DNA from: Candidatus Methanomethylophilaceae archaeon
Lineage (GTDB): Archaea > Thermoplasmatota > Thermoplasmata > Methanomassiliicoccales > Methanomethylophilaceae
DNA length: 42,296 bases
NCBI GenBank assembly: GCA_017519045.1
Contig: JAFWTC010000017.1
Span: 1 to 42,296, forward strand
Direction: 5' to 3'
Below the pieces are notes generated by a model. It saw only the letters and a program-made list of their open reading frames with translations, was not told the DNA's origin and searched no databases. The translations under genes were made by a program, and so were the position numbers. This document shows, piece after piece, positions 10,627-38,753 of the stretch; the stretch's first letter is position 1; every line of letters begins with the position of its first letter.

Positions 10627-10634
10627 GGCATCCC

Positions 10635-12636: not shown

Positions 12637-12660
12637 TCTATAGTGGTTATCATGCTCAAT

Positions 12661-15693: not shown

Positions 15694-15705
15694 TGTCGGA
15701 TCTAA

Positions 15706-15724
15706 CGGGGGGTTATTCCCCCCG
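15706..15724 (+). promoter_or_regulatory. Intercistronic hairpin between binding protein and permeases, system 2
   Basis: C-GGGGGG-TTATT-CCCCCC-G forms a perfect 7-bp stem with a 5-base loop, 12 bases after the binding-protein stop and before the permease ribosome site. A partial terminator or RNA-stability element that raises binding protein over permease output is inferred. A similar hairpin occupies the same junction in system 4. Confidence 0.55.
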
Positions 15725-15739
15725 CCTTTCCAGAGGGAT

Positions 15740-17026
15740 ATGATGAACAGCATTCGTTTGAGGATCGTGGCGGTTCTGGTCGTCTTCGCCATCACGGCGA
15801 TATTGGGATACGTTTCCCTGCCGAGGCTTGTGGACAGCGGCAACGCCGTCCTGTATTTCGAATCGTCCATCATCTCCCTCATGTGTATCGTGGTCGGATG
15901 CATGATCTACGCTGACCGCAACGATTGGAAGAGGAGGCTGTTCGCCCCCGAAGGCGACGGCACATCCGACGGGTTCATCCGCAGCTACCGTTCATATCGC
16001 AGGCGCAGCGTGCTCTTCATCGTCGCCATGGCCGTCCTCGCGTTGATTCTGGCGGGGGTCTCGGTCACCCTGGGGCAGAAGCTGGTGACTTTCGCACAGG
16101 TCTACCAGCTGATTTGTGACCATATCTGCGGCGTGACCTATGATCGCACTGACCCCCTGTTTCTGGCGGACATTCTCGTATGGGATGTCAACATACCCCG
16201 CGCCGTGGCCACGGCCGTCGCAGGATGCAGTCTGGCAATCGGGGGCGCTGCGATGCAGAGCGTCATCAAGAACCCGCTAGCGGATCCGTACACTACTGGG
16301 ATATCATCTGGCGCGGTTCTCGGAGTGTCTGTCTGCATGGTATTGGGAATCACGGTCCAGGCCGTCGGAGGCTATGGGCTCGTGTTCAACGCCTTTCTGT
16401 TCAGCCTCATTCCTGCATTCCTCATGATATTCATCGCCCGCATCTCCCACGGTTCAGTGGTCACGATAATCCTGGTCGGGACCGCCATCTCGTACATCTT
16501 CTCGTCCGTCACGACCATCCTCATGCTGCTCGCCGACGAGACTACAATGGACTCCATATTCGTCTGGGAGGTCGGGTCGCTAAACGGCATGACCTGGACC
16601 AACGTGCCGATAATGTTCGTGTTCACGGCGGTCTGCTCCGTCATTCTCTATCTGATGTCGAACAAGCTCAACCTCCTGATGATGGGGGACAATGACGCCA
16701 AGGCGCTTGGGCTCAACATCAACAACTTCCGCACGGTGTGCCTCGTCCTGATCGCGCTCATGACAGCGGCCGTCATCAGCTTCACTGGGATCATCGGGTT
16801 CCTAGGTCTTCTCTGTCCCCACATCGTCAGGATGATAGTGGGCAGCGATTCCCGTCTGGTGATTCCGAGCGCGGCCGCACTGGGCACGGTGATCCTGTTC
16901 CTGGCGGATATAGTGAGCCGCACAGCTGCCACCAAGGCCATGCCTGTCGGTGTGGTCATGTCCTTCATCGGGGGGCCGCTCTTCCTGCTCCTGGTTCTGA
17001 AGATGAGACGCGAGGTGATAGGTTGA
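15740..17026 (+). CDS. FecCD-family permease A with extra N-terminal helices, system 2
   Basis: 428 residues, longer than the usual ~340. Two extra hydrophobic segments (residues ~8-27 and ~40-58) precede a basic loop (RRLFAPEG, RSYRSYRRRS), then the normal permease follows. Landmarks: VWDVNIPRAVATAVAGCSLAIGG, AMQSVIKNPLADPYTTGISSGA, GFLGLLCPHIVRMIVGSDSRLVIP, and ends with GGPLFLLLVLKMRREVIG. The start ATG 15740 follows CAGAGGG. It probably pairs with permease B, whose TTG start overlaps its stop. Confidence 0.88.
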   Translation: MMNSIRLRIVAVLVVFAITAILGYVSLPRLVDSGNAVLYFESSIISLMCIVVGCMIYADRNDWKRRLFAPEGDGTSDGFIRSYRSYRRRSVLFIVAMAVLALILAGVSVTLGQKLVTFAQVYQLICDHICGVTYDRTDPLFLADILVWDVNIPRAVATAVAGCSLAIGGAAMQSVIKNPLADPYTTGISSGAVLGVSVCMVLGITVQAVGGYGLVFNAFLFSLIPAFLMIFIARISHGSVVTIILVGTAISYIFSSVTTILMLLADETTMDSIFVWEVGSLNGMTWTNVPIMFVFTAVCSVILYLMSNKLNLLMMGDNDAKALGLNINNFRTVCLVLIALMTAAVISFTGIIGFLGLLCPHIVRMIVGSDSRLVIPSAAALGTVILFLADIVSRTAATKAMPVGVVMSFIGGPLFLLLVLKMRREVIG

Positions 17027-18087
17027 TACCGTACGAGACGTTCCGCAAGGACTACCGGTCCGGCGTAAACAGGAAGCTGTTGATCCTCGTCGCGGTTTTC
17101 GCGTTGGCAATCGTCGCGTCCTTCCTGAGAATCGCGTTCGATCAATACAATATAGACTTCTTCGAGGCCTACGGCGTGCTCATAGACCATCTTACCGGGG
17201 TCCCGGTGGCGAACGAGACCGACGAGTACATAGTCTGGGAGCGCACGACCCCCCGCGCGATATCCGTGTTCCTGGTCGGCGCCGGCCTAGGGGTGTGCGG
17301 GGCGGCCATGCAGAGCACTCTCAAGAATCCTCTGGCGGATCCGTACATGACAGGGATAGCCTCGGGAGCCAACTTCGGGATATCCATGGCGATCGTCTAT
17401 GGCGTGTCGCTGGTTCCGTTCCTGAGCGGTCAGGCGGGCATGATATCCAACGCGTTCCTTCTTTCTCTGGTCCCGGCGCTCTTCATAGTCGGCGTTTCCA
17501 TAGTGAAGTCCATCAGTCCCGCCATGATGATATTGGTGGGCGTTTCCGTCATGTACGTATTCAGCGCGGCTACAACCATGCTGAACCTGATGGCTTCTCC
17601 CACCCAGTACGTCCAGATATACACATGGGCTCTGGGCACTTTGGGAAGCATAGAGTGGCAGCACCTGCCGTTCATACTGGCCGCAACCGTGCTTGGGGTG
17701 ACGTCCCTGACGTCCCTGAACGCCAGGCTGAACCTCCTCTCGTATACCGACAAGGAGTCCGTCTCTTTAGGGCTCAGTCCCAGGGGGACGCGCCTGCTCA
17801 TGATAATCATAGTGTCTCTGGTTACCGCCATACTGGTCTGCTTCTCTGGGACCATCGGGTTCGTCGGTCTCGTGGCGCCCCATGTCATGCGCATCATCAT
17901 AGGGTCCGACAACCGTTATCTGATTCCCGCGTCTGCGTTTGGCGGAGCGCTGATGCTCGCGATCGCCGATACGATCGCGGTCAAGATACTTCCTTCCGGG
18001 CTGCCGGTGGGAGTAATAACGTCCTTGATCGGAGGACCTCTGTTCATTTACATACTGATCAGGCAGCACAAGAAGATCTGGAGCTGA
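17023..18087 (+). CDS. FecCD-family permease B, system 2
   Basis: 354 residues. It starts at TTG 17023, which shares TTGA with the stop of permease A; GAGGTGAT ends 3 bases upstream and decides the start. Landmarks: VWERTTPRAISVFLVGAG, AMQSTLKNPLADPYMTGIASGANFG, GFVGLVAPHVMRIIIGSDNRYLIP. Two different permease genes with one ATPase imply a heterodimeric channel, or two alternative homodimers. The ATPase gene starts 4 bases after its stop. Confidence 0.9.
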   Translation: MIPYETFRKDYRSGVNRKLLILVAVFALAIVASFLRIAFDQYNIDFFEAYGVLIDHLTGVPVANETDEYIVWERTTPRAISVFLVGAGLGVCGAAMQSTLKNPLADPYMTGIASGANFGISMAIVYGVSLVPFLSGQAGMISNAFLLSLVPALFIVGVSIVKSISPAMMILVGVSVMYVFSAATTMLNLMASPTQYVQIYTWALGTLGSIEWQHLPFILAATVLGVTSLTSLNARLNLLSYTDKESVSLGLSPRGTRLLMIIIVSLVTAILVCFSGTIGFVGLVAPHVMRIIIGSDNRYLIPASAFGGALMLAIADTIAVKILPSGLPVGVITSLIGGPLFIYILIRQHKKIWS

Positions 18088-18091
18088 GACG

Positions 18092-18907
18092 ATGACGGAA
18101 TTGATTCTGGAAAAGGTCACGTTCGGATATAGCGACGAGCGCGAAATATTTACTGACATAGACCTCAGGATAGACAAGCCTCAGCTGCTGACGATTCTTG
18201 GGCCCAACGGGGTGGGGAAATCCACTCTGATACATTGCATAAATCGTATATTACATCCTAAATCCGGAAAGGTGGTTCTGGATGGCAAAGACGTCGCCGA
18301 TTATCCGACCAAGGAGCTGGCGAAGATGATCGGATACGTCCCCTGTTCTTCTGGGACCACGTTTCCCATGTCCGTGGCCGATACGGTCATGATGGGCCGC
18401 TATCCCCACAGCGGCTCCAGAAGGACCGAGAAGGATCTGCGCATTGTGTACAACTCTTTGTCCATGCTGGGAATCGAGGATCTCGCCATGAGGTCCTTCG
18501 CCGAGCTTTCGGCGGGTCAGCATCAGAAGGTCATGCTGGCGCGCGGGCTGGCCCAGGAGTCGGAGATACTTCTGCTGGACGAGCCCACGTCGAACCTGGA
18601 CATCAAGCACCAGATGAACGTGACCAGGCTTCTCAAAGAGCTGGCCGACAAGCGTGGAATGATAGTCATCATGATCTGCCACGACCTCAACATAGCCTCC
18701 CGCTATTCCGATCGCATCGTGATGCTGCACGAAGGGAGGATATTTGCGGACGGGACCCCGGACAAGGTGCTTACGGCTGAGAACATAAAATCGGTCTACG
18801 GCGTCTCCTGCCAGGTCGTCGAGTTCGAGGGCAGGCCCCATGTAATGCTCTGCGATAGCGGAGTGGACCAGCTGATGCTGTCGGACGAGGCGCCGGCATC
18901 TTCCTGA
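18092..18907 (+). CDS. FecE/BtuD-type ABC ATPase, system 2
   Basis: 271 residues. Walker A GPNGVGKST (residues 37-45), signature variant LSAGQHQKV, Walker B ILLLDEPTSNLD, switch His in ICHDLN. It energises the system 2 permeases. The C-terminal segment (VYGVSCQVVEFEGRPHVM) is a short regulatory tail also seen in the ATPases of systems 3-5. It ends 42 bases from the convergent nifK-like gene, with a strong hairpin between. Confidence 0.92.
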   Translation: MTELILEKVTFGYSDEREIFTDIDLRIDKPQLLTILGPNGVGKSTLIHCINRILHPKSGKVVLDGKDVADYPTKELAKMIGYVPCSSGTTFPMSVADTVMMGRYPHSGSRRTEKDLRIVYNSLSMLGIEDLAMRSFAELSAGQHQKVMLARGLAQESEILLLDEPTSNLDIKHQMNVTRLLKELADKRGMIVIMICHDLNIASRYSDRIVMLHEGRIFADGTPDKVLTAENIKSVYGVSCQVVEFEGRPHVMLCDSGVDQLMLSDEAPASS

Positions 18908-18949: not shown

Positions 18950-20203
18950 TCATCTCGCGTTCAGGATTTCGTCCAGCATCTGATGCAGCCCCTCGAGTCC
19001 CATGATGGACTTCGGGGCTATGTCTATCTGGTCTCTGCTGGGCATGGATATGTCTATCCCAGCGGCACAGGAGCCTTGCTTCTCCAGGAGCTCCACGAAG
19101 GAGCCGGGGCCGAAAAGGATGTTCGTGTATCCGGCACCGAACTCCATCCCGAGGGCTTCCGGACAGCCGATCTTCTCCAGCATCTCCTCTATTCTCCTTT
19201 CAAAGTCCGGGTCGGACTCCGTCACCTTGATGCTTTTCGGGTACATCTTCAGGAATCTTATCAGGAAGTCCGCAAGAGGGTATATGACGGACGATTCCCC
19301 CTCTATGGAGAACGTCTTGTAGTTCAGGTAGTCGGCCTGCCCTACCGAGGACTCCATAGCCATGCGCACGTCCTCCTCGTCCTCTGAAAGCTCTTTCAGG
19401 GCTATTGACGGGTCGGCCCCGAAGCGCTCAGCTATTTTGGTCACGAAGGCCTTCATGGAGTAGTAGCCGATGGGCGCCCCCATGTCGCTGGTAATCGCGG
19501 GAATTCCGTGGACGTCCTCGTAATATCTCGACAGCATCCTGCAGTATTCTGGATGGATGCAGATGTTGTATTCGGCGGACGAGGACCGTCTGAACTCCTC
19601 CAAAGAGCACCCGGCGCCTATGGCGGCCACGACCTCTATTCCCATCGATGACAGCATGCGGCGAATCTCCTTGAGGAGCCTGGCGTATCCCCGGCTGGTG
19701 AACGGTAGGCCGATGATGTTCGCGGTCATCCTCTTCTTTTCGGAAGGCTCCGTCAGCTTCTCCGCGATCTTGGTCAGCACCGAATCGAATCCCAGGGAGA
19801 ACTTCTCGGACATGAACGACGAGTCGATTACCAGGGTCTTGCGGTCCAGGCCCTTGTCTAGGACCTCGTCCTTCAGCTTGTCGCCTATCAGCGCGGCGCC
19901 TGGAGACTGCACTATGGTGGCGAACTCTGTCTCGTCCTGCTCCAGGATGTCCAGGATCATGGCCACCTTCTTCGAGGCGCCGTATATGTAGTCGTCCTTG
20001 TCGGTAGAGGTGCAGGGAATCCTGCTGAAATGGAAGAAATAGTCGCCTTCACGGGTCTCGTATTTCCTCTTGATGTAGCGTTCGGAGGCCAAGGACATGA
20101 ACATCCTGCAGGCGAACGGCCCGTGCAGGATGGTGGTCGCATCCGTTATGCTTTCAGCGGCAAGGACGCATCCTATGAATCCATCCATCTCAGTTGAGCC
20201 CAT
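18950..20203 (-). CDS. NifK-like nitrogenase component 1 subunit
   Basis: 417 residues, shorter than NifK and like the BchB/NflK class. The start ATG 20203 lies inside the end of the preceding gene (14-base overlap) and is backed by GAGGTGA. Cys12 (FIGCVLAA) and Cys32 (HGPFACRMF) match the first two cluster-ligand positions of NifK. The third position is Ser-Pro (VQSPGAALIGDK, residues ~98-110), so one Cys is missing. FSRIPCTSTDKDDYIYGASKK resembles the NifK segment around the DED-G motif. It should pair with the NifD-like half of the neighbour to form a component 1 tetramer with a cluster at the interface. The substrate is not known; the adjacent chelatase suggests a tetrapyrrole. Confidence 0.82.
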   Translation of the reverse strand: MGSTEMDGFIGCVLAAESITDATTILHGPFACRMFMSLASERYIKRKYETREGDYFFHFSRIPCTSTDKDDYIYGASKKVAMILDILEQDETEFATIVQSPGAALIGDKLKDEVLDKGLDRKTLVIDSSFMSEKFSLGFDSVLTKIAEKLTEPSEKKRMTANIIGLPFTSRGYARLLKEIRRMLSSMGIEVVAAIGAGCSLEEFRRSSSAEYNICIHPEYCRMLSRYYEDVHGIPAITSDMGAPIGYYSMKAFVTKIAERFGADPSIALKELSEDEEDVRMAMESSVGQADYLNYKTFSIEGESSVIYPLADFLIRFLKMYPKSIKVTESDPDFERRIEEMLEKIGCPEALGMEFGAGYTNILFGPGSFVELLEKQGSCAAGIDISMPSRDQIDIAPKSIMGLEGLHQMLDEILNAR

Positions 20204-22292
20204 ATCTGTTCACCTCTATCATGCGCGCGATGCGCTTGGCGATCTCCATGCAGCCTTTGATTCCCGGCCGTGGAGGCTCCACTACCATATGCAGCGTCTT
20301 CAGGCTGCTCAGGGTGTAGTTGGTTCCGACAGTGAAGGTGGGTTTGAGGGATTCTATCTCCGCTTCGAGATCGCCGACGTTCTTGTCGTACAGCACCGGG
20401 ACGTCGCGGGATATGCTGAGGTCGCAGTCCGACATGTTCCACTTGCTGTTGGTGGGGCATAGGATCTCCAAGGTCTTCACGCCCATCGCCTCTAGGGTCT
20501 CCAGCAGCCATTCTATGTCCGACGAGGTGTCTATGTAGATGATGGACGTGGTCCCTTCGAACCTGGACTTCAGCGGTTCCATCCCTTCGAGGTATTCTTG
20601 CCTCATGTCCGAGATCAAGGACTCGGCAGGGCCTAGGCCGCGACCTTCGCGCTCCGCGAATCTCCTCAGCCACCCCTCGGTCTGCGCCAGGCCCCGCGGG
20701 AGCGGTTCCGGATAGAAATCGACGCCGGTGGATTTCTTGACGATGCCCGCCTGATGTTTAATGGTCATTCCGCTGGAGAACAGCACGTTCATTCTTCCTT
20801 TGCGGAAGCCGATAATCTCCTCCGACCTGTTGCGGTGGAGGAATCTGCAGTTGATCTTCAGTCCTGCAGCATCCAGTATTCTTTCCGTCTCGTCGCTCGC
20901 ATTGAGGACGCGGTCATCCGATTCCGCATAACCGATTATGTTGACGAGGTTCTCGTGAGGATCCACGTCGGGATCGGCCAGTCCGCATATGCGTTCTATC
21001 GCCATGTTCATGGCCTGTATCCCGCCTCCGCATAGTATCCCGTCCATCGGAATCGGGATTATCCTGGTCCCGGGGTGTCTCTTCTCTATGTCCAGGCATA
21101 TGTTCTCGGTGTCGTCGCCGATTATCCCGGGGACGCACGCGGTGATGACGAAGATCAGCTTGGTTCCGGCTTCCGCTCTCTTCTCGACTACGGCCGCCAG
21201 CATCTTTCCTCCGCCGAATATGGACGCATGGTCGTCCAGACAGGTGGGGAATGTGCGGTAGTTGACGCTTCTCAGGTCCGTCTTGCCCTCGTTGAGGATC
21301 CTGCGGTCGTATGCGGAGTTGTAATAGTGGGCGCAGCTCATGGGCCCGTGCACCACCAGGTCGGCGTCCAGTATCGACAGGCAGCAGTTGGAGACCACGC
21401 GGATTCCGCAACTTCTGAGGGCGGTCCTCTCCGTGGTCGCCAGGACTCGGGTGTTGTGGGAGAACTCCTTCGGACGTACCCTTATCCCTTTGGCCACCAG
21501 GTCCAGGTCGTCGTCGTTCAAGGGATTGGCGGGATGCAGGCGCGTCTCTCCTCTCAGCTCCTGCTCTATCGCCGCCACGATTGCCTTGTAGCTTTCCGTC
21601 TCCTTGGAATCAGGGAACATCTCCGCAACCGTCATTCCGTTGGATTCCGCAGTAGAGAATAATTTGGAGCGTGGAATCACCGCCACTATCGGGAGGCCGA
21701 CGGCGTCTGCGAAGTTCTTCACATATTCGTACTCGTTCTCGTTCCCCCTGGAGTTGAGTATCAGGCCGGCCAGCCTGCTGTCCCCGTTGTCGAAGTTGCG
21801 TATCCCCTTGAGGACGTTGTTCGCGGCATAGAGGGACATGAACTCCCCGGAGGTGACGATGAATACGACGTTGGCGTACTGCTTCCTCAGGGGGACCGCG
21901 AATCCTCCGCAGACCACGTCTCCCAGCACGTCGTAGATTATAACGTCGGTGTCCTTCGGGACTATCGACTTCTCCTTGATGAAGTCGAACGCGGTGAGGA
22001 TCCCCCTTCCGGCGCATCCCACTCCTGGTTCCGGGCCGCCCGTCTCCATGCAGATCACCCCGTTCTTTCCCTTGGCTATCACCTCGCTCCCGTCGCCTCC
22101 GGATTCGGATCCAAGGTAGTCTAGGATGGTGACCTGGGTCTTTCCGCCAAGGAGCAGCCTGGTGGAGTCATGCTTCGGATCGCATCCGATCTGGACCACG
22201 TTCAGCCCTTTCTTGGACAGGAGGTATGAGATGTTCGCCGATGCGGTGGACTTGCCTATTCCGCCTTTTCCATATATCGCCACTTGTTTCAT
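20190..22292 (-). CDS. NifH-NifD-like fusion (reductase plus component 1 subunit)
   Basis: 700 residues. Residues 1-265 are a full Fe protein: Walker A GKGGIGKST (8-16), switch I GCDPKHDSTR, 4Fe-4S ligands Cys93 (GVGCAGRG) and Cys128 (DVVCGGFA). After a ~25-residue linker, residues ~290-700 are NifD-like with three cluster-type cysteines: Cys294 (RSCGIRV), Cys320 (HGPMSCAHYY) and Cys386 (ITACVPGIIGDD). At the place of the FeMo-cofactor Cys the sequence is FSSGMTIKHQAG, with no Cys, so nitrogen fixation is not expected. No ATG lies in the linker, so a separate NifD start is unlikely. In dark-operative protochlorophyllide reductase, chlorophyllide reductase and CfbCD, such pairs reduce tetrapyrroles with ATP-driven electrons. 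Second gene of the operon, 16 bases after the chelatase. Confidence 0.88.
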   Translation of the reverse strand: MKQVAIYGKGGIGKSTASANISYLLSKKGLNVVQIGCDPKHDSTRLLLGGKTQVTILDYLGSESGGDGSEVIAKGKNGVICMETGGPEPGVGCAGRGILTAFDFIKEKSIVPKDTDVIIYDVLGDVVCGGFAVPLRKQYANVVFIVTSGEFMSLYAANNVLKGIRNFDNGDSRLAGLILNSRGNENEYEYVKNFADAVGLPIVAVIPRSKLFSTAESNGMTVAEMFPDSKETESYKAIVAAIEQELRGETRLHPANPLNDDDLDLVAKGIRVRPKEFSHNTRVLATTERTALRSCGIRVVSNCCLSILDADLVVHGPMSCAHYYNSAYDRRILNEGKTDLRSVNYRTFPTCLDDHASIFGGGKMLAAVVEKRAEAGTKLIFVITACVPGIIGDDTENICLDIEKRHPGTRIIPIPMDGILCGGGIQAMNMAIERICGLADPDVDPHENLVNIIGYAESDDRVLNASDETERILDAAGLKINCRFLHRNRSEEIIGFRKGRMNVLFSSGMTIKHQAGIVKKSTGVDFYPEPLPRGLAQTEGWLRRFAEREGRGLGPAESLISDMRQEYLEGMEPLKSRFEGTTSIIYIDTSSDIEWLLETLEAMGVKTLEILCPTNSKWNMSDCDLSISRDVPVLYDKNVGDLEAEIESLKPTFTVGTNYTLSSLKTLHMVVEPPRPGIKGCMEIAKRIARMIEVNRYGLN

Positions 22293-22308
22293 TCTATCGC
22301 CTAGTCCT

Positions 22309-25300
22309 TCAATAATTCCTGTCGGTCAGGTCCTCTATCTTCTCCTCGGCCTCCAGATAAGCGTTTTTCAGCACTTCCATCAGGTCTTCAGGGGCGTCCC
22401 ACAACCCGCGCTCTATAGTTTCCAGAAGGTCGTCCACCATGGATTTGAGGGCGTAGGGGTTGTTTTCAGAAATCCAGCGCCGGGATTCGTCGTCTTCTAT
22501 GAATCTCCTGGTCACGGATTCGAAAACCCAGGGCTCAACGGTGTCCGAGGTCGCCGACCATCCGAGGAGGGCGCCGGTGAGCTTAGAGAACTCCTGTGCC
22601 CCGCGGAACCCGTGCTTGCGCATGCCCTCGGCCCATTTGGGGTTCAAGACCCTGCTGTGCATCACGAACGACGTCTCCTCCTCGATCGAATGGAGCCTCG
22701 TGCGGTCGCGATCGGAGCTGTCGCCCATGAAGGACAGCGGTTTCCTCCCTCCGTAAGCGCGCACGGCGGCGTTCATCCCGCCAAGTATCTCGTAGTAGTC
22801 GTCCACGTCGAGAACGTCCATTTCGCGGTCCGGGGTGTTCTTCACGGTCACCTCGACCTTGGACATCCTCCTGGCGAAGGCGTCGGACATGTATTTCCCG
22901 CCCATCCCGCGGCTGTAGCTGAAGGCTCCGTAGCGCGTGTACACGTCCGCGATGTCTCCGACCTCCCTCCAGTCCGAGGATTCTATGACCTCGCCGGTCC
23001 CGCATCCATAGTCCCCGGGGGCATCCCCGAACAGCCTTACGGACGCCTTCATGCGGGCCTCGTCGTTCGGTATCCCCTCTAGGATGTCCCTGGTCACTTC
23101 TTCGGACACGTGTCTGCGTATCAGGTTGGATTCTTCGTCTTCGTCCAGCTCCATCACTATGCGGACGGCCTCGTCCAAAAGTTCTATCAGCGCAGGGAAG
23201 GAGTCGCGGAACATCCCCGTCATGCGCATGGTCACGTCTATGCGCGGTCTCCCAAGCTCTTCCAACGGGATGGCTTCCAGGCAGGACACCTTCCCGTTGG
23301 CCGAAGCCCATATCGGCCTCACTCCCAGAAGGTAAAGGATGTAGGCGATGTCGTCCCCGCCGGTCTTTATCGTGTCCGTGGCCCAGATGATGATTCCCAC
23401 CGTTTCCGGGTAATGTCCGAGCTCCTTCAGGCTCCTGGACAGCATCTCGTCGGCCATGCGCCTGCCTATCTCCCAGCTGGATTCCGACGGAATGGTTTCC
23501 GGATCCAGGGAGAAGAAGTTTCTACCGGTCGGGAGGATGTGGGAGTTGCCGCGTGTGGGAGAGCCGGAAGGGCCTTTGTCGACGTATTCGCCATCCATGC
23601 CCCTTATGAGGTTGTGGATCTCGTCCCCCATCATCCGGATGCGTGGGACCAGGTCGTCGCAGATGAATCCAAGGGTTTTCATGACTTCCGGGGAGGACCT
23701 GTATTTTTCATCCAGGCGTCTTTCGGCGTTTTTCAGATTGTAGTCCGATTCGGAGAGCACCCTTACCATTTTGAGGGATCTTGCATCGTATTCGTCAATC
23801 AGTGCCCCGTTGAGGGCCCCGCCCGTCATTTCGGAGGGGTTTTCCTTCAGAGTTCTGAAGTCTAGGCCGTCGGCGGCCGCCAGAGCGCCTCTGAGGGACT
23901 GTACTCCCCCGTTCCGGAGGCGGGTGAGGGCGTAGGCCATCTCCTGGAGATCGTCTCCTTCCGGGATGCGTCCCAGGACGTGCAGTCCGTTCTTGATGGG
24001 GGCCTCCTTGATGTCCGAAACGAGTTCGTAGAGTTCTTGGATCCCATCTTTCACCCCATTTTCGATGGACAGGTTGAGGATCTCGGCTAGATGCGATATC
24101 TCTTTCGCTTCTATGTCCATCTTGTCGGAGCGTCCCGTGGCGCGGGCGTACATGAATGCCTGCAGGCGGGCGTCCAGCTCTTCCAGGTCGTCGTAGGCGC
24201 CGGAGCGGGTCATGGGAGGAACCATGTAGTCCACTATGACGGAGCTAGTGCGCCGTTTGGCGCCAACTCCTTCGCCGGGGTCGTCCACTATGTACGAGTA
24301 GAGGTTGGGAACGGCGCCCTGGACTATGTCTGGCCAGCATTCCGACGACAGTCCGCTGTTCTTGCCAGGCAGCCATTCCAGCGACCCATGGGTACCGAAG
24401 TGGATCATGACGTCCGCCTTGAACGAATCCCTGATCCAGCGATAGTATGCGATGTAGTGGTGAGGCACAGGGAGATCGGCGCTATGGACCGATTCCTCGG
24501 AGTCGTCCTCCGGATTCCCTCTTGTTGGCTGGAATCCTATGAGCACGTTGCCGTTGACCACGCCCGGAATCGCGATCTTCCCACGGTCGACCATGAATTC
24601 TCCAGGGGGGTCCCCCCATCTGGAGACGACCTGTTCCCTGCGGGATTCCGGCAACTCTGAGAAAATGCTGTCATAGTCTGCCGCAGAGACCCATCCCGCA
24701 GCCGATTCCGAGAACCCCCTCATCGGAGCGCTTTCCAGGTCGTTCGTCAGGCCGGCCATCATGGAGCGGACGAAGTCCTCGGACGTCTCGGGGATGTGGT
24801 TTATGAAGTATCCGTTCTTTTTCATCTCCAGCAGCAGGAGGCGGAGGCTCTCGAACGTGTCCAGTCCTGCGGCGCCTCCCATGTTCCACGTCTCGGCGGA
24901 GTGCATGTTCAGCATGATTGCTACTTTCTTCTGCGTGTTGTTCTTTCTGCGGAGCTTCGCCCAGTTGACGGCCAGTTCCGCTATCCTATCCACCCTGTCT
25001 TGTACGAAGCGCGTGGCGTATCTTCCATTCTCGTCCAGGCTGAGGAACGCGAACGGCGATGATATGATCTGACCGTCGAATTCCGGCCATATCACCGTGG
25101 TTGCCAATTCGTTGGTGCTCAGTCCTTGCGAATCCGCCCATTCCTCCGGCGGGCGCAGCACGAACGGGGCTTGGATGACCGGGACGTTCAGGTCGGCGAA
25201 GAAGTTGTGCGATGACTTCCCGTCAGGACAGGACGCGGCCAGCTGAGAGAAGCGGAAGGACATGACCAGCGCGTCTATCATGGCCTTTCCATCTTTCTTG

Positions 25301-26064
25301 AAGTAGCGGTCTATGGTCGCCGGCATGCCTATGGATTCGGTCATGTCGCTTGGCGCCGATAGGCAGAAAACGGGTATGACGTATGCCCCTCTTGATTCCA
25401 ACGACCTGACGAGGGCGTCTATGTGGGAGTGATTGTGCGATATCCAATAGTGTTGGCGGAACAGTATCCCGATGACGGGGCGGTCATCAGGGATTCCGGA
25501 CAGGTATTCCTCCTCGTCTATCGGGTTTGGCCGGTCCGGGTGAAATATCCCTTGCGCACGGGGAATCATCGGGGCATCTACGGGGATATCGATGCCGGTG
25601 GCACGCCTGCAAAGCCATGAGATGGCGTTCCTGAAGTTCACATCCCCCGTTAGTCCCAGATATCTGCGCATGATGCGGAAACCCTCGTCGTCCATGTCGC
25701 ACGTCCCGCGGTATTCCGTCATCACGTCGTCCTCGTCGCAGTAGATGAACGTCGTGGTGCCGTTTTGACTGGCCTTTTCCATTATTCTTCCGAAAGTCCT
25801 CATGTACTTCGGGTCGCCATGGGTGCGCATCAGCAGAGCGTCTGCCGAGTCCAAGGCGCTCATGATTTGCGAGAGCGTGTATCCGGAGGAGTCCACGGAT
25901 TCCGAGTTGACGGATGTAACAAGGATGTTCGCTGGAACGTTCTCCATCCCGGTTACGACCGATCCGAAGTTCTCTGCGTCCATCATCCCGACGGACACGT
26001 ACACGATCTCGAAGTTTGGATCGTTTCCGTCCCTATGGTTTCTGAATGTGAACACAATGGACAT
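22309..26064 (-). CDS. CobN/ChlH-type metal chelatase large subunit
   Basis: 1,251 residues from ATG 26064, the usual size of CobN or BchH. Family stretches: HFGTHGSLEWLPGKNSGLS, PNLYSYIVDDPGEGVGAKRR, WATDTIKTGGDDIAYILYLLGVRPIW and ELGRPRIDVTMRMTGMFRDSFP. These proteins hold the porphyrin or corrin ring while the metal is inserted, powered by an AAA+ partner (CobST or ChlID). No AAA+ partner gene is in the window. The frame is open 54 codons further upstream, but a TATA box centred about 28 bases before 26064 places the start of transcription almost at this ATG, so the mRNA should be leaderless. First gene of the operon with the NifHD- and NifK-like genes, a pairing of chelatase and nitrogenase-like reductase that recalls chlorophyll synthesis. 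Metal and ring are unknown. Confidence 0.87.
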   Translation of the reverse strand: MSIVFTFRNHRDGNDPNFEIVYVSVGMMDAENFGSVVTGMENVPANILVTSVNSESVDSSGYTLSQIMSALDSADALLMRTHGDPKYMRTFGRIMEKASQNGTTTFIYCDEDDVMTEYRGTCDMDDEGFRIMRRYLGLTGDVNFRNAISWLCRRATGIDIPVDAPMIPRAQGIFHPDRPNPIDEEEYLSGIPDDRPVIGILFRQHYWISHNHSHIDALVRSLESRGAYVIPVFCLSAPSDMTESIGMPATIDRYFKKDGKAMIDALVMSFRFSQLAASCPDGKSSHNFFADLNVPVIQAPFVLRPPEEWADSQGLSTNELATTVIWPEFDGQIISSPFAFLSLDENGRYATRFVQDRVDRIAELAVNWAKLRRKNNTQKKVAIMLNMHSAETWNMGGAAGLDTFESLRLLLLEMKKNGYFINHIPETSEDFVRSMMAGLTNDLESAPMRGFSESAAGWVSAADYDSIFSELPESRREQVVSRWGDPPGEFMVDRGKIAIPGVVNGNVLIGFQPTRGNPEDDSEESVHSADLPVPHHYIAYYRWIRDSFKADVMIHFGTHGSLEWLPGKNSGLSSECWPDIVQGAVPNLYSYIVDDPGEGVGAKRRTSSVIVDYMVPPMTRSGAYDDLEELDARLQAFMYARATGRSDKMDIEAKEISHLAEILNLSIENGVKDGIQELYELVSDIKEAPIKNGLHVLGRIPEGDDLQEMAYALTRLRNGGVQSLRGALAAADGLDFRTLKENPSEMTGGALNGALIDEYDARSLKMVRVLSESDYNLKNAERRLDEKYRSSPEVMKTLGFICDDLVPRIRMMGDEIHNLIRGMDGEYVDKGPSGSPTRGNSHILPTGRNFFSLDPETIPSESSWEIGRRMADEMLSRSLKELGHYPETVGIIIWATDTIKTGGDDIAYILYLLGVRPIWASANGKVSCLEAIPLEELGRPRIDVTMRMTGMFRDSFPALIELLDEAVRIVMELDEDEESNLIRRHVSEEVTRDILEGIPNDEARMKASVRLFGDAPGDYGCGTGEVIESSDWREVGDIADVYTRYGAFSYSRGMGGKYMSDAFARRMSKVEVTVKNTPDREMDVLDVDDYYEILGGMNAAVRAYGGRKPLSFMGDSSDRDRTRLHSIEEETSFVMHSRVLNPKWAEGMRKHGFRGAQEFSKLTGALLGWSATSDTVEPWVFESVTRRFIEDDESRRWISENNPYALKSMVDDLLETIERGLWDAPEDLMEVLKNAYLEAEEKIEDLTDRNY

Positions 26065-26472: not shown

Positions 26473-27561
26473 ATGGAGGAATGGGACCAGCCGGTGGATT
26501 CCGATGCGTCCCTGGAGAGCACGCTGTCGTACTATCTTCGCAACCGCCTCTGGAAGTTCGCCTTCATCGGCATATGCTTCGTCGCGATCTTCCTGGTCGC
26601 AGGATACACGATAACGATCGGGAGCATGAACATCTCCTTCGTCGAGACCTACGAGACCATATGGAACCATCTCACCGGGAACATCGTCAACGACGGCTTC
26701 GACTTCGTCGTCTGGGACCTCCGCATGCCCCGCGTCCTGGCCGGCATAATCGGAGGCGCGGGACTGGCGGTCTGCGGGGCGGTCATGCAGAACACCATGA
26801 AGAACCCCCTGGCCGACCCGTATACCACCGGGGTCTCGTCAGGGGCGTCCCTGGGGGCCACCATAGCCATGACCGTCGTCGGCGGCCTTATGGCGTCCAC
26901 CAACGTCACCGTCATCGGGGCGTTCCTGTTCTCGCTCATCCCCGTCGGGATGATGATAGCCATATCGAAGATGAAGGACGCGTCCCCGACCACGATGATC
27001 ATGGCCGGGATAGGCATAATGTACATCTTCAACGCGATCACGACCGTCCTGATGATCTGGTCGGACCCCCAGCAGATGCAGGCCGTCTACCGCTGGCAGG
27101 TGGGTACCCTGGACATCGTCAAGTGGGAGCACCTCCCGATAATGGGCCTGGTCACCCTGGCCGGCGTCGTCATAAGCATGCTGATCTCCGGGAGGCTCAA
27201 CGTCCTTTCCACCGGCGACGAGAGCGCCAAGGCGATGGGTATAGACGCGGACAGGATGCGCATCTGGTGCCTCGTCATGGTCGGGCTGGTGTCCGCGGTC
27301 ATCGTGAGCTTCACCGGCCTGATAGGGTTCGTCGGGCTCGTCGCCCCGCATATAACCAGGCTGTTTATAGGCTCGGACAACAAGTTCCTGATCCCGGCCT
27401 GCGCCGTGTTCGGCTCCATGCTCCTGATAGTCGCGGACGCCCTGGGAAGGACGATCCTGTCGCCGAACGTGATCCAGGTCGGAGTCGTGATGTCGTTCGT
27501 AGGAGGGCCGATATTCCTTCTGCTCCTCCTCGGCAGCAGGAAGAGGATGTGGTCGTCATGA
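26473..27561 (+). CDS. FecCD-family permease, system 3
   Basis: 362 residues from ATG 26473, the first standard start in frame. Landmarks: VWDLRMPRVLAGIIGGAGLAVCG, AVMQNTMKNPLADPYTTGVSSGASLG, GFVGLVAPHITRLFIGSDNKFLIP, GGPIFLLLLLGSRKRMW. The 14 codons upstream (QDPLLSRSVKESM) align with the N-terminus of the system 4 permease (EDPLLGSSVLESV), so the real protein probably begins at ATA 26431, 6 bases after GGAG. No binding-protein gene is in this operon; it may use a binding protein from another system. Its stop overlaps the ATPase start (ATGA). Confidence 0.88.
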   Translation: MEEWDQPVDSDASLESTLSYYLRNRLWKFAFIGICFVAIFLVAGYTITIGSMNISFVETYETIWNHLTGNIVNDGFDFVVWDLRMPRVLAGIIGGAGLAVCGAVMQNTMKNPLADPYTTGVSSGASLGATIAMTVVGGLMASTNVTVIGAFLFSLIPVGMMIAISKMKDASPTTMIMAGIGIMYIFNAITTVLMIWSDPQQMQAVYRWQVGTLDIVKWEHLPIMGLVTLAGVVISMLISGRLNVLSTGDESAKAMGIDADRMRIWCLVMVGLVSAVIVSFTGLIGFVGLVAPHITRLFIGSDNKFLIPACAVFGSMLLIVADALGRTILSPNVIQVGVVMSFVGGPIFLLLLLGSRKRMWSS

Positions 27562-28442
27562 CCCGCGTCGAGCTGAAGGACGTGACCTTCGGGTACAACC
27601 CGGGCCATCCGATAATCAAGGACATCAGCCTCGTGGTGGAGGAGCCCGGGCTCTATTGCATAATCGGTCCTAACGGAGTGGGGAAGTCCACCCTGGTGAA
27701 ATGCCTGAACAGGATTCTGGCCCCCACGTCGGGCACGGTGGAGATCGACGGCGTCGACGTCGCCACGATGCACCGCAAGGAGATCGCCAGGCATATAGGG
27801 TACGTTCCTGTGGCCAGCGACGACACCTTCGCCATGTCCGTCCTGGACACGATATTGATAGGAAGGTACAACCACCGCAGCTGGGGGTCCGAGGGCAGGG
27901 ACCTGGAGGCGGCGTACAGGGCGATGAAGCTGCTCCGCATCAGGAATCTGGCGAACAGGAACTTCAACGAGCTCTCCGCCGGACAGCATCAGAAGGTCGC
28001 GATCGCCAGAGGGATAGTCCAGGAGACGCCGGTGCTGATACTGGACGAGCCCACCGCCAACCTGGACGTCAAGTACCAGGTGTATGTGACGGAGCTTCTG
28101 AGGGCCTTCGCGGAGAAGAAGGGGATCGCGGTGCTGACCATCAGCCACGACCTCAACATCACGTCGAAGTACGCCCACAAGGTCATAATGCTGGCCCGCC
28201 CCGGCGTGGTCTACCGCGTGGGGACCCCCAGGGAGGTCATGACCAAGGAGAACATCGAGGCCGTGTACGGGATAGAATGCAGCGTGGAGGAGCACGACGG
28301 GTATCCGTACATAGTGCTCGGCGGGCCTCTGATGGACGACGACGACCGCGTGGACGACCTTGGAGGGTTCGAGAAGACCTCCCGCATAAGGGAGTTCGCG
28401 AGCGTCCTGAGAGGGGCGGTCCCGAAACGCAGGTCCAAGTGA
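27558..28442 (+). CDS. FecE/BtuD-type ABC ATPase, system 3
   Basis: 294 residues. Walker A GPNGVGKST (37-45), signature LSAGQHQKV, Walker B VLILDEPTANLD, switch His in SHDLN. Very close to the system 4 ATPase over the first ~250 residues. It has a longer tail than its paralogues (DDDDRVDDLGGFEKTSRI and a basic end KRRSK). Start is the ATG of the ATGA overlap with the permease. Confidence 0.92.
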   Translation: MTRVELKDVTFGYNPGHPIIKDISLVVEEPGLYCIIGPNGVGKSTLVKCLNRILAPTSGTVEIDGVDVATMHRKEIARHIGYVPVASDDTFAMSVLDTILIGRYNHRSWGSEGRDLEAAYRAMKLLRIRNLANRNFNELSAGQHQKVAIARGIVQETPVLILDEPTANLDVKYQVYVTELLRAFAEKKGIAVLTISHDLNITSKYAHKVIMLARPGVVYRVGTPREVMTKENIEAVYGIECSVEEHDGYPYIVLGGPLMDDDDRVDDLGGFEKTSRIREFASVLRGAVPKRRSK

Positions 28443-28702: not shown

Positions 28703-30445
28703 GTGATATTCGGATACATGACAAGGCGGGATCGCTTGATGCTGGTCCCTGTTGTCGTTCTTGTGATTTTCCAGGTTTACCTGGATCTGAAGATACCCGA
28801 GTACATGCAGAGCATCACCTACGCTTTGCAGGTGGGCACGACTTCCGCCCTCATAGTCGAGGACGGGTGGAAGATGATCCTCTGCGCCTTGGCAAGCTTC
28901 GCCGCCTCGTTGTGCGCCGGCGCGCTGATAGCGCTGATAGCCTCCTCCCTCAGCCGCACCTTGCGCAACGAGCTCTACTCCAAGGTCTGCGGATTCTCGT
29001 CCGAGGACGTGGCGCATTTCTCGGCCGCCTCCCTGATCACCCGTGTCACGGGGGACGTGAAGGAGGTCCAGACCTTCGTCAGCACGGCTCTGCAGACTCT
29101 GATCAAGTCGCCTATATTGGCGGTATGGGCCATCGCCAAGATATCCGGGGGAGGATGGGAATGGACGGCCGTCACGGCGGCTTCGGTGATCTTCCTGGTG
29201 TCTGCCATATCCTTGATAACGGCCCTCAGCGTCAAGTACTTCAGGAGGGCCCAGGTCCTCACGGATTCCCTGAACGATGAGACGCGGGAGAGCATACTGG
29301 GCTCCAAGGTGGTCAGGGCGTACAACGCGGAGGACTTCCAGGGGCACAAGTTCCAGAAGGCCTCGGAGGACATGCTGGACAACTACATGGGGCTGTTCCA
29401 TGTCCGGTTCGCCCTGTTCCTGCTGCCGCCGGTCGTCACGAACTTCCTCACGATGGCGATCTATTGGATAGGCGCCGTCCTGATAAGCGGCAGCGGGGCG
29501 GAAGACGTCCAGATGAGGCTGTTCTCCGATATGGTGGCGTTCTCGTCCTACGGATTGCAGGTCCTCGGCGCCTTCATGCTGATCGCCGACTTCATCAAGG
29601 ACTATCCGCACGTGGTCGTCAGCATCAGGCGTGTGGAGGATGTATTGCGCTGGGAGCCGACCGTCAAGTATCCGGATCCGGAAGGACCGGCCGGGCCTGG
29701 ATGCGGGCGTGTCGAGTTCAGGAACGTCACATTCAGGTATCCGGGAACCAAGAGGGATTCCCTGTCCGGCGTGAGCTTCTCGGTGGGCGAGGGGCAGACG
29801 TTGGGGATCATAGGCAGGACCGGGAGCGGCAAGATCACCGTCGCTAGGCTGCTGCTGAGAAACTACGACGTCGACGGAGGGGCCGTCCTCGTCGACGGGA
29901 TGGATGTGCGGAGCTACCCTCATGACGATTTAAGGGGCAGGATGGCGTGCGCCTTCCAGGAGCCGTTCATCTTCTCAGGGACGGTGAGGGAGAACGTGGA
30001 CTTCGGGAACCAGGAGGGGTCCCGCTCGGATTCGGACGTCTGGGCGTCGCTCGGCATCGCACAGGCGGAGGAATTCGTGAGGGCCATGCCGCAAGGCCTC
30101 GACTCGGTTCTGCTGTCAGGGGGAAAGAACCTCTCAGGCGGGCAGAGGCAGAGGCTGTCCATCGCCCGCGCGGTGTGCAAAGGCTCCAGGATCCTGATAC
30201 TGGACGACTCGTTCTCGGCATTGGATATGAGCACCGATGCGGCTCTCGGCAGGGCGCTGCGGGAGTCGCTTGCGGATCGGACCAAGATCATAATCAGCCA
30301 GCGTGTCAGGTCGATAATCGACGCTGACGAGATACTGGTCCTGGACGGGGGAAGAGTGGTCGGATTGGGCACGCACGAGGAGCTGTTGGGCTCCTGTCCC
30401 GTGTATGCGGAGATCGTGAGGACGCAGATGGAGGTCTGGAAGTGA
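28703..30445 (+). CDS. Heterodimeric ABC exporter subunit A (degenerate ATP site)
   Basis: 580 residues. Start GTG 28703 is set by GGAGGTCGATC ending 2 bases upstream. Six membrane segments (residues ~1-300), then a nucleotide-binding domain. Walker A reads GRTGSGKI: residue 378 is Ile where Ser or Thr should bind Mg. The signature LSGGQ is intact (~476). Walker B ends LILDDSF, with Asp502 at the catalytic Glu position, and the switch His is Gln533 (IISQRVRS). So its own ATP site is degenerate while its signature can complete the partner's good site, the usual asymmetry of heterodimeric exporters such as TM287/288. The Ile is unusual even so. Overlaps subunit B by GTGA. Located among importers, it may export a metallophore or tetrapyrrole; this is inference. 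Confidence 0.85.
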   Translation: MIFGYMTRRDRLMLVPVVVLVIFQVYLDLKIPEYMQSITYALQVGTTSALIVEDGWKMILCALASFAASLCAGALIALIASSLSRTLRNELYSKVCGFSSEDVAHFSAASLITRVTGDVKEVQTFVSTALQTLIKSPILAVWAIAKISGGGWEWTAVTAASVIFLVSAISLITALSVKYFRRAQVLTDSLNDETRESILGSKVVRAYNAEDFQGHKFQKASEDMLDNYMGLFHVRFALFLLPPVVTNFLTMAIYWIGAVLISGSGAEDVQMRLFSDMVAFSSYGLQVLGAFMLIADFIKDYPHVVVSIRRVEDVLRWEPTVKYPDPEGPAGPGCGRVEFRNVTFRYPGTKRDSLSGVSFSVGEGQTLGIIGRTGSGKITVARLLLRNYDVDGGAVLVDGMDVRSYPHDDLRGRMACAFQEPFIFSGTVRENVDFGNQEGSRSDSDVWASLGIAQAEEFVRAMPQGLDSVLLSGGKNLSGGQRQRLSIARAVCKGSRILILDDSFSALDMSTDAALGRALRESLADRTKIIISQRVRSIIDADEILVLDGGRVVGLGTHEELLGSCPVYAEIVRTQMEVWK

Positions 30446-33087: not shown

Positions 33088-33091
33088 CGGA

Positions 33092-34240: not shown

Positions 34241-34262
34241 GATGCGCTCCCGGGAAGAGGTC

Positions 34263-34277
34263 GGGGGCATAGCCCCC
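34263..34277 (-). promoter_or_regulatory. Intercistronic hairpin between binding protein and permease, system 4
   Basis: GGGGG-CATAG-CCCCC (plus strand) forms a 5-bp GC stem 10 bases after the binding-protein stop. Same position and style as the hairpin of system 2, suggesting a common way to lower permease output relative to binding protein. Confidence 0.5.
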
Positions 34278-34286
34278 TGGGTTTGC

Positions 34287-37626: not shown

Positions 37627-37642
37627 TCCGAGGGCGGGCTGC

Positions 37643-38752: not shown

Positions 38753-38753
38753 G

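Follow-up and report, generated by a model that had tools for sequence, protein, structure and literature searches.

Reduction of tetrapyrroles by nitrogenase-like enzymes is carried out by DPOR and COR (BchLNB and BchXYZ), in which an Fe protein serves a two-subunit catalytic component, and whose genes occur alongside a gene for the Mg chelatase BchHID. Chlorophyllide reductase (COR) holds a catalytic [4Fe-4S] cluster on three cysteines of one subunit and one of the other, these lying on the N/Y and B/Z sides, respectively. The archaeal nitrogenase-like CfbCD, the Ni-sirohydrochlorin a,c-diamide reductive cyclase of F430 biosynthesis, has one kind of catalytic subunit. Large chelatase subunits of the CobN type belong to the cobaltochelatase CobNST, while in the anaerobic corrin pathway cobalt is inserted early. 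A relative of CobN, HmuS, frees iron from heme, and the role of archaeal CobN/ChlH homologues is called unclear (PMC12583661).

The window, a stretch of 42,296 nucleotides from a Candidatus Methanomethylophilaceae archaeon, encodes a chelatase subunit and a nitrogenase-like reductase in one operon flanked by importer genes:

7342 to 12448, plus strand: importer set of a large binding protein (7342-10626), a FecCD permease (10635-11687) and an ATPase (11684-12448)
12643 to 18907, plus strand: importer set converging on the operon, with a dockerin-bearing binding protein (12643-15693), two FecCD permeases (15740-17026 and 17023-18087) and an ATPase (18092-18907), assigned by Pfam, FecCD search and homology
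18950 to 20188, minus strand: NifK-like partner subunit of 412 aa, assigned by PF00148, alignment and dN/dS
20190 to 22292, minus strand: NifH-type Fe protein (about residues 1-265) fused to a NifD-like catalytic subunit (about residues 290-700), 700 aa, assigned by PF00142 and PF00148 in one chain, cysteines and trees
22309 to 26064, minus strand: predicted CobN/ChlH-type class I chelatase large subunit of 1251 aa, assigned by PF02514, TIGR02257, motif alignment and tree
26473 to 28442, plus strand: importer FecCD permease and ATPase, divergent from the CobN gene, assigned by FecCD search and homology
28703 to 32223, plus strand: pair of MsbA-type ABC exporter half-transporters, assigned by NCBIfam and homology
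32251 to 35675, minus strand: importer set of an ATPase (32251-33087), a FecCD permease (33092-34240) and a binding protein (34287-35675)
36274 to 39533, plus strand: importer set of a binding protein (36274-37626), a FecCD permease (about 37787-38731) and an ATPase (38754-39533)

Gene calls and Pfam domains bear out the three packed, co-directional genes described in an earlier note on this DNA. The CobN gene, whose start is uncertain and whose frame is open as far as 26226, is separated by 16 nt from the fusion gene, and the latter by 1 nt from the NifK-like gene, or overlaps it by 14 nt where an alternative NifK start extends that gene to 20203 (417-aa form). Compared with a 92%-identical gene of a congener, the NifK-like gene has a dN of 0.043 and a dS of 0.463 (dN/dS about 0.09), which, together with a family-wide linkage beyond that of random stretches, suggests that the operon is more than a chance arrangement. 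The papers searched contained a single passing reference to a "fused nifH/nifE" gene. The five importer sets counted in the earlier note are present, one without a binding protein, and comprise six FecCD genes; the congener locus L081 shows the same convergent arrangement of an importer next to NifK. MsbA-type exporter pairs also occur near the related loci L085, L092, L101, L120 and L126, their membership in the system being uncertain. As to the substrate, the binding proteins gave PDB matches that either were too weak (best E 0.0095) or fell on dockerins and proteases, and a search for cobalamin riboswitches in six sources returned one tRNA as its sole match. No CbiZ, ChlI or ChlD gene was found in the window.

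The chelatase subunit contains a full-length CobN-Mg_chel domain (PF02514, 1170.6 bits, positions 2-1088 of 1090) and, in its longer frame, exceeds the equivalog cut-off of the CobN model TIGR02257 (888 against 822 bits); it stays below the cut-offs of the other listed CobN equivalog models. With HFGTHG, which fits HxGxHG, at residue 555 and a CobN-type DVDDYYEILGG at 1086, the protein is by its sequence a class I chelatase large subunit of the CobN/ChlH superfamily. It contains 53 Met in total. The ChlI/ChlD partners for which the earlier note proposed a genome search are represented by ChlI/ChlD-like pairs on three other contigs of the genome, best matched by TIGR02442 (putative cobaltochelatase) at scores under its cut-off. 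Despite these likenesses to CobNST, no cob gene cluster surrounds the window CobN, and the genome encodes CbiD of the anaerobic pathway, suggesting that the organism may make corrin itself.

HmuS likewise belongs to the CobN superfamily and is linked to uptake genes, and the operon might accordingly strip metal from imported heme or another metallo-porphyrin, the NifHDK-like enzyme supplying reduction. The motif and tree results make this idea a rival rather than the leading one. It has a precedent in the CobN superfamily (PMC12583661), and importers adjoin the operon, but the window CobN is a poorer match to HmuS (415 bits) than to CobN (689) or ChlH (502), and the tree places it on the side of CobN (SH-aLRT 92, in a quick search with long branches). 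Aligned with an Aureibacter gene annotated as CobN and adjoining HmuY, which served as the HmuS reference, it lacks the His of the LDHxxEFMGG motif (DVDDYYEILGG instead) and the neck HGR motif (SFRF at that column), and it is without any strongly hydrophobic stretch that could correspond to the C-terminal membrane segment of HmuS. The CbiZ, CbiK and CobB-like partners of related loci, moreover, have no recognised role in the use of heme, and heme de-chelation is considered improbable.

The single chain of the fusion matches both Fer4_NifH (PF00142, 290.7 bits) and Oxidored_nitro (PF00148, 148 bits), the latter domain being found also in the NifK-like protein (132.1 bits). Cysteines 93 and 128 of the NifH part and 295, 320 and 386 of the D part are invariant in 18 of 18 aligned fusions; the earlier note had these right except for the first D cysteine, which it placed at 294. 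The D half labelled C21 is without the first D cysteine, and that labelled C84, from the same genome as the window, is incomplete in the gene call and does not cover the first cysteine position. The three D cysteines align with three cysteines of Rhizobium NifD that are presumably P-cluster ligands. In the NifK-like protein, the pair invariant in 20 aligned proteins is Cys27 and Cys59 (Cys32 and Cys64 of the 417-aa form), so that the Cys12 singled out previously is not conserved, while the Ser-Pro reported at the third site is present. Cys59, which is missing in the proteins C15 and L123, is without a counterpart in the reference rows, and Cys27 aligns with a cysteine of NifK and of BchZ. The nearest PDB match of the NifK-like protein is DPOR subunit B, at a weak 36 bits. 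By alignment columns, the DPOR/COR ligand pattern is thus reproduced by Cys295, Cys320 and Cys386 of D and, at the BchZ position, Cys27 of K, a [4Fe-4S] cluster being predicted. The FeMo-cofactor ligands of NifHDK were not found: as the earlier note stated, the cysteine is missing, Ser occupying its column in the window (Ser, Asp or Val in the D rows of this genome), and the column nearest to the FeMo-cofactor His is a gap in the window D.

In trees built with Nif, Bch and Cfb rows, Mar rows being left out, the D and K proteins form clades of their own (support 99/99 and 100/99, respectively) that exclude the Nif and Bch rows used, the order among clades being weak; neither BchN/B nor BchY/Z joins them. 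Largely the same subgroups recur in both clades, as expected for the subunits of one complex. Both are also separate from CfbD, of which the single row is a long branch placed weakly beside K. A union of CfbC with the Fe-protein half of the window and the two relatives closest to it is rejected by the AU test (p 4e-6 with three CfbC rows, 0.003 with two), this triplet being the constraint because holding the window half alone also tears it from its sisters and says little. The three CfbC rows do not form one clade in the best tree, and their monophyly is not rejected (AU p 0.08); a union of all fused Fe-protein halves on one side is neither rejected (p 0.40) nor demonstrated. An additional CfbC row looked for in L082 was not found. 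The placement inside the CfbCD clade that the earlier note had set against its own reading is not borne out. PDB chains that we take to be Mar scored below NifE and BchB.

The genome also contains the separate cfb genes for which the earlier note had suggested a search, in an F430 operon of CfbA, CfbC, CfbD, CfbE and CfbB-like genes. Like CfbCD, the window reductase is archaeal and nitrogenase-like, and some of its relatives have CbiX/CbiK- and CobB-type genes nearby; unlike CfbCD, it has two kinds of catalytic subunit. It is very improbable that an ordinary enzyme, whether CfbCD, a nitrogenase or a methylthio-alkane reductase, has been misread here. The NifH part has its best NCBIfam match in the CfbC model, at 318.7 against a cut-off of 402 that the CfbC of the same genome also misses (331.4), but the separate cfb operon, the AU results, the D and K clades in these Mar-free trees and the lack of FeMo-cofactor ligands all speak against an ordinary enzyme.

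The 1.9 Mb draft genome contains seven sets of this reductase, so that the one in the window is no isolated oddity, together with ten CobN genes, three ChlI/ChlD pairs, 43 FecCD permeases and three CbiZ rows at two CobN loci. Of 147 genomes in the order, 78 encode CobN together with the NifK-like protein, six and ten encode just one of the two, and 53 lack both, a patchy presence even within the genus, some genomes being incomplete. Linkage within the order was assessed in 41 of the 59 loci L081-L139, those of at least 17 kb, all with NifK and picked by hand among matches of the window NifK, not randomly. They were compared with 40 random stretches from sixteen contigs, the NifK loci spanning more genomes and one random stretch with a NifK set being kept. 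Chelatase genes (CobN, ChlI or ChlD) turn up in 15 of the 41 NifK loci but in only 2 of the 40 random ones, and FecCD in 23 against six; taken singly, the links to CbiZ (7/41 against 1/40, p 0.057) and ChlD (eight against two, p 0.09) are not significant. The lack of chelatase linkage among homologues, which the earlier note would have counted against its reading, is therefore not borne out, although 52 of 82 NifK stretches of at least 11 kb, seven of them from this genome, showed no chelatase gene. In one batch, 27 of 64 loci were dropped from neighbourhood counts as duplicates of others.

Six Methanomicrobiales loci (L176, L182, L184, L192, L194 and L197) share the order CbiZ-ChlI-ChlD-gap-FecCD-ATPase-NifHD-NifK, the gap containing a binding protein in L184, and CobN lies nearby in four, the other two stretches ending within 1.6 kb of NifK. 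NifK is followed by CbiK in five loci, in three of them with Pfam confirmation. A CobB-like a,c-diamide synthase comes after NifK in two loci and is divergent from NifHD in one. Six further loci carry window-type sets. In L085, whose K protein is 45% identical, the operon starts with a CobN of a different subgroup from the window CobN, and no more than 10 kb separates NifK from two CbiZ frames and importer genes; it is the only one of the six with CobN in the operon, L084 and L086 having opposite-strand CobN frames, L082 and L083 none, and the L081 stretch being cut short. De novo clustering of neighbour families yielded CbiZ as the useful family, some top families looking like out-of-frame shadows and being left unused. 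The CbiZ-like proteins score at best 82 against the CbiS cut-off of 250, suggesting that their substrate may differ from cobinamide; they extend about 135 residues past the Pfam domain, and one of them, compared with the PDB, had no match there. NCBIfam models identified CfbB/CobB-like proteins and a CfbA-CfbE fusion among the cfb-type genes of these loci and the genome. The partners found are cobalamin/F430-type genes.

Release of metal from a chelate other than a tetrapyrrole, such as a metallophore, by the chelatase and reductase appears quite unlikely. The 43 FecCD permeases and the numerous paralogous sets point to a variety of chelates, MsbA-type and ABC-2 exporters occur near some sets, and some nitrogenase-like enzymes handle small sulfur compounds; Mar reportedly does so, as may a nitrogenase-like enzyme said to be tied to isethionate assimilation (PMC12552129 and PMC11423573). 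The cobalamin/F430-type partners argue against such a substrate, however, and the characterised chelatase relatives known to us work on tetrapyrroles. The tetrapyrrole substrate proposed in the earlier note is likely, given that the NifH part does not group with CfbC, that D and K form their own clades, that the cfb operon is separate and that chelatase genes are linked.

The ring might be made internally, as a new modified metallo-tetrapyrrole cofactor for which the importers bring metal, and two phototroph plasmids follow the same gene logic, with bchN-bchB-bchH-bchL in one run. HemD, behind a binding-protein gene, lies 1.4 kb from another CobN of the genome, and the CbiK and CobB-like synthase of the relatives are biosynthetic. 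Such de novo synthesis is nevertheless rather unlikely: CbiZ is named for a hydrolase, the importers lie inside the conserved cluster, which fits uptake better, and the patchy occurrence is unusual for a core cofactor. From the Bch systems the reductase itself differs in the fusion of H and D, in its separate D and K clades and in the CbiZ, CbiK, CobB-like and importer partners of its relatives; among the neighbours identified there was no bch gene.

The wholly new biosynthetic product entertained in the earlier note is less favoured than salvage or remodelling on account of the recurring CbiZ, CbiK, CobB-like, ChlI/ChlD and BtuFCD-type partners. We tentatively prefer a reading, itself somewhat short of probable, in which the chelatase and reductase together salvage or remodel an imported, amidated, sirohydrochlorin-derived metallo-tetrapyrrole, a corrinoid or F430-like. 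The flanking BtuFCD-like importers would take up the ring; CobN, driven by AAA+ partners of the ChlI/ChlD type whose genes lie on other contigs, would insert or remove its metal; and a NifH-NifD/NifK complex would reduce double bonds of the ring, using ATP and low-potential electrons passed through the predicted cluster, perhaps with metal exchange as part of the remodelling. Cobinamide salvage through CbiZ and BtuFCD offers a parallel in the relatives' importers and CbiZ-like proteins, from which the present system differs in its added class I chelatase and nitrogenase-like reductase and in the longer CbiZ-like proteins. Against salvage or remodelling counts that the importer linkage is partly a matter of FecCD abundance, for which the control allows in other genomes. 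The lack of CbiZ, ChlI and ChlD in the window, the many NifK stretches in which no chelatase gene was found and the possibility that the organism, having CbiD, makes its own corrin also count against it. To our knowledge, biology offers no established case of cobalt being taken out of a corrinoid.

More speculatively, and on balance unlikely as a whole, methanogens of at least three orders may possess an unrecognised, often multiplied system of metal exchange and ring repair for B12/F430-type cofactors. Amidated sirohydrochlorin-type rings, either corrinoids or spent F430, would be imported, the class I chelatase would change the metal and the fused nitrogenase-like enzyme would re-reduce the ring, paralogous sets serving different rings. 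The analysis connects many archaeal CobN/ChlH homologues with a single conserved gene set, which occurs in named methanogen strains, and points to a likely substrate class. The Fe proteins known to us are separate proteins that dock and leave, and one fused to its catalytic subunit would bear on electron transfer of the nitrogenase type. In rumen and gut methanogens, the system could reveal how cofactors with a cobalt- or nickel-containing ring are acquired and shared.

The chelatase and nitrogenase-like genes of the window occupy a single compact locus:

18950-26064, minus strand: operon of three genes placed back to back, with no space for others

According to Pfam, these genes code for a full-length CobN/ChlH-type chelatase subunit (22309-26064), a NifH-type Fe protein fused to a NifD-like subunit (NifHD; 20190-22292) and a NifK-like subunit (18950-20188), so that the packed operon of this composition read from the sequence in an earlier note is borne out by gene calls and domain matches. 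The chelatase exceeds the NCBIfam cut-off of the CobN equivalog (888 vs 822) and, among solved structures, matches CobN best (689 bits), followed by ChlH (502) and HmuS (415). CfbC is the best NCBIfam model for the Fe-protein part of the fusion, with a score under its cut-off, and no NCBIfam model reaches its cut-off for either the D-like or the K-like catalytic half. The top structural matches of the fusion are Fe proteins, followed by NifE, and the K-like protein matches DPOR subunit B best, at 36 bits. The NifK gene and its copy in a congener differ with a dN of 0.043 and a dS of 0.463, indicating purifying selection.

In a 65-row tree, the D-like (99/99) and K-like (100/99) subunits each form one clade, separate from Nif D, K, E and N and from Bch N, B, Y and Z, with weak deeper branching; the only CfbD row, on a long branch, has a weak placement next to the K clade. 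The subgroups of the two clades largely match, as expected of partners in one complex. Of the NifD-type frames at the loci studied, 113 in all, 94 include a NifH part. The Fe-protein tree (34 rows) has a group made up of two NifH and three CfbC rows, with no fused half inside (95/99). AU tests reject a union of the window Fe-protein half and its two nearest relatives with all three CfbC rows (p 4e-6) and likewise with two of them (p 0.003). Placement of the proteins inside the CfbCD clade, the alternative named in the earlier note, is thus contradicted by both tests and by the separate D and K clades. The chelatase tree (29 rows) places the window CobN with the CobNs of reductase-bearing loci, that of Methanospirillum included (97% SH-aLRT, 12 rows, quick search), and further CobNs near NifK, such as that of L085, a locus of the same order, fall in a second group.

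Cysteines 93 and 128 of the Fe protein, already picked out from the sequence, are invariant among 18 aligned fusions, as are C295, C320 and C386 of the D part; the D ligands were initially given as 294, 320 and 386, of which the latter two stand and the first is corrected to C295. Cys12, listed earlier for the NifK-like subunit, is not conserved, the invariant pair among 20 aligned K-like proteins being C27 and C59. The former aligns with a Cys of NifK and a Cys of BchZ, and the latter has no equivalent in the reference rows of the alignment. Alignment with these references agrees with the reported Ser-Pro at the third NifK site of the window protein and the missing FeMo-cofactor Cys, with no FeMo-cofactor ligands found in the D part. 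Exceptions beyond these alignments are the set on contig C21, which lacks the first D Cys, and the K proteins of contig C15 and of L123, a locus of the same order, which lack C59. The cluster of chlorophyllide reductase is bound by three Cys from the D-type and one from the K-type subunit. Because of the D/K Cys pattern and the absence of FeMo-cofactor ligands, a predicted cluster of this type, with three Cys of D and one of K, would be expected here.

The draft genome from which the window derives (1.906 Mb, 86 contigs, 91% complete) encodes PylS and an F430 operon, and the source is therefore taken for a methanogen. Pfam searches return nine NifH rows, including a weak one at 29.8 bits, fifteen Oxidored_nitro rows, ten CobN genes (twelve rows), three CbiZ rows, one CbiD row and 43 FecCD permeases, a very large siderophore/B12/heme-type importer set for a 1.9 Mb archaeal draft. 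One NifH row, CfbC-like (331 bits, cut-off 402), belongs to a cfb operon on contig C4, together with CfbD (382 bits, cut-off 268), a CfbA-CfbE fusion with both parts over cut-off and a CfbB-like synthase. The separate cfb genes that the earlier note suggested looking for are thus present, and the genome is provided for in F430 synthesis. The remaining seven strong NifH rows represent seven reductase sets of the window's kind. Six are H-D fusions in a single frame, that on C23 with an in-frame TAG, and the set on C84 is split. The NifHD paralog of this genome at L043:8227-10335 (minus strand) has a single in-frame TAG, at residue 570; among the matches listed, nine of ten CobN rows with internal stops contain TAG only and one contains TAA. 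Given PylS, pyrrolysine or read-through at the in-frame TAG is possible. FecCD genes lie near six of the seven sets, with none within the 20 kb fetched around the C21 set. The search for ChlI/ChlD partners, likewise suggested earlier, yielded three pairs (C84, C62 and C39), for which a putative cobaltochelatase is the best model, every gene scoring under its cut-off.

To assess linkage, 41 fetched NifK stretches of at least 17 kb were compared with a control of 40 stretches, each of 20 kb, chosen at random on sixteen long contigs from the same order (Table).

Genes in NifK stretches and random stretches (Fisher p)
CobN: 14/41, 1/40 (3e-4)
CobN/ChlI/ChlD: 15/41, 2/40 (7e-4)
FecCD: 23/41, 6/40 (2e-4)
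CbiZ: 7/41, 1/40 (0.057)
ChlI: 8/41, 1/40 (0.029)
ChlD: 8/41, 2/40 (0.09)

The chelatase link therefore extends to homologues elsewhere. When every NifK locus is counted whatever its length (103, of which seven come from the draft genome itself), FecCD is found in 52, CobN in 30, CbiZ in 20 and ChlI in 18. Six Methanomicrobiales loci share the order CbiZ-ChlI-ChlD-gap-FecCD-ATPase-NifHD-NifK, with a binding protein inside the gap in L184 (Methanospirillum stamsii); four of them have CobN next, on the opposite strand, and the remaining two stretches extend no further than 1.6 kb beyond NifK. M. stamsii has an ABC-2 type exporter pair between NifK and CobN (L184:11376-13054), and export may be part of the system. 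Methanococcoides vulcani carries ChlI, ChlD, FecCD, ATPase, NifHD, NifK, CbiK and CobN (two frames) on a single strand. In two Methanococcoides species (L177:12470-16228 and L191:7451-8044), the CobN beside the cluster is in two frames or partly seen, a split or broken chelatase. CbiK comes after NifK in five loci. A CobB-like a,c-diamide synthase does so in two (at ~20 nt in L130), and one more locus has it divergent from NifHD. At L082, the locus with the closest relative from outside the genus, the window-type set has a CbiX-type chelatase gene ~2 kb away. L085 is the bridge between the window-type set and CbiZ: a CobN gene precedes its window-type NifHD-NifK pair, and no more than 10 kb from NifK are two FecCD genes, two CbiZ frames and a binding protein.

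Among 147 genomes of the order, CobN occurs in 84 and the NifK-like protein in 88 (both in 78, CobN alone in six, NifK alone in ten, neither in 53), as raw counts that ignore kinship and incompleteness. A named-genome scan adds Methanospirillum stamsii, Methanococcoides vulcani and seepicolus, Methanoculleus, Methanoregula and Methanomethylovorans, as well as a few anaerobic bacteria. NifD/NifK relatives are also encoded in bacterial MAGs (L205-L209 and L212; Eubacteriales, Coriobacteriales, Lachnospiraceae, Propionibacteriaceae and one further bacterium), with no chelatase within the 3.6-19 kb fetched.

The tetrapyrrole substrate proposed in the earlier note is strengthened by the family-wide chelatase linkage and the cobalamin/F430-type partners. 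As none of the recurring partner genes comes from chlorophyll or heme synthesis, an amidated sirohydrochlorin-derived ring is the likeliest predicted substrate. The importers would take up such a ring, corrinoid or F430-like, and the chelatase and reductase would remodel it, with metal inserted or removed. Oxidised (spent) F430 has one ring double bond in excess and, by analogy, would be an attractive substrate, since a DPOR-type enzyme could mend this bond.

HmuS is a CobN relative able to take metal out of a ring (PMC12583661; see also PMC13227078), and its authors consider the role of archaeal homologues unclear (PMC12583661). Two motifs of HmuS are missing from the window CobN. The CobN paralog L048:8074-11607 contains a DLDHYYEFFGG motif (HmuS/ChlH-type His), groups weakly with BchH and HmuS and adjoins importer genes, with HemD 1.4 kb away; it is a better archaeal de-chelatase candidate than the window CobN. 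The HxGxHG motif is altered in the CobN paralogs L040:10945-14520 (HMGSRG), L049:6925-10509 (GMGSHG) and L087:5704-9252 (HMGTRG), which are perhaps no longer catalytic. Pfam dockerin type I domains occur in the window binding protein at 12643-15693 and in L041:9769-10698, near another CobN, with a weak match (E 0.0065) in the window binding protein at 34287-35675, suggesting possible surface anchoring.

A 2011 survey relayed a guess that CobNS-like chelatases and NifHD-like proteins act in F430 synthesis (PMC3087415), for which the Cfb pathway has since been established (PMC7242693), and a table on replication origin boxes in Borrel et al. (2014) mentions a "fused nifH/nifE" gene for Ca. M. 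intestinalis (PMC4153887). No description of the CobN/NifHD-NifK gene set was found in the titles, abstract openings and passages covered by searches of open-licence papers; further accounts may exist in subscription papers about group IV nitrogenases. The system joins two known kinds, a nitrogenase-like reductase, here with a fusion that is unusual, and a chelatase system, and what appeared to be a single odd operon is a widespread and multiplied gene set.
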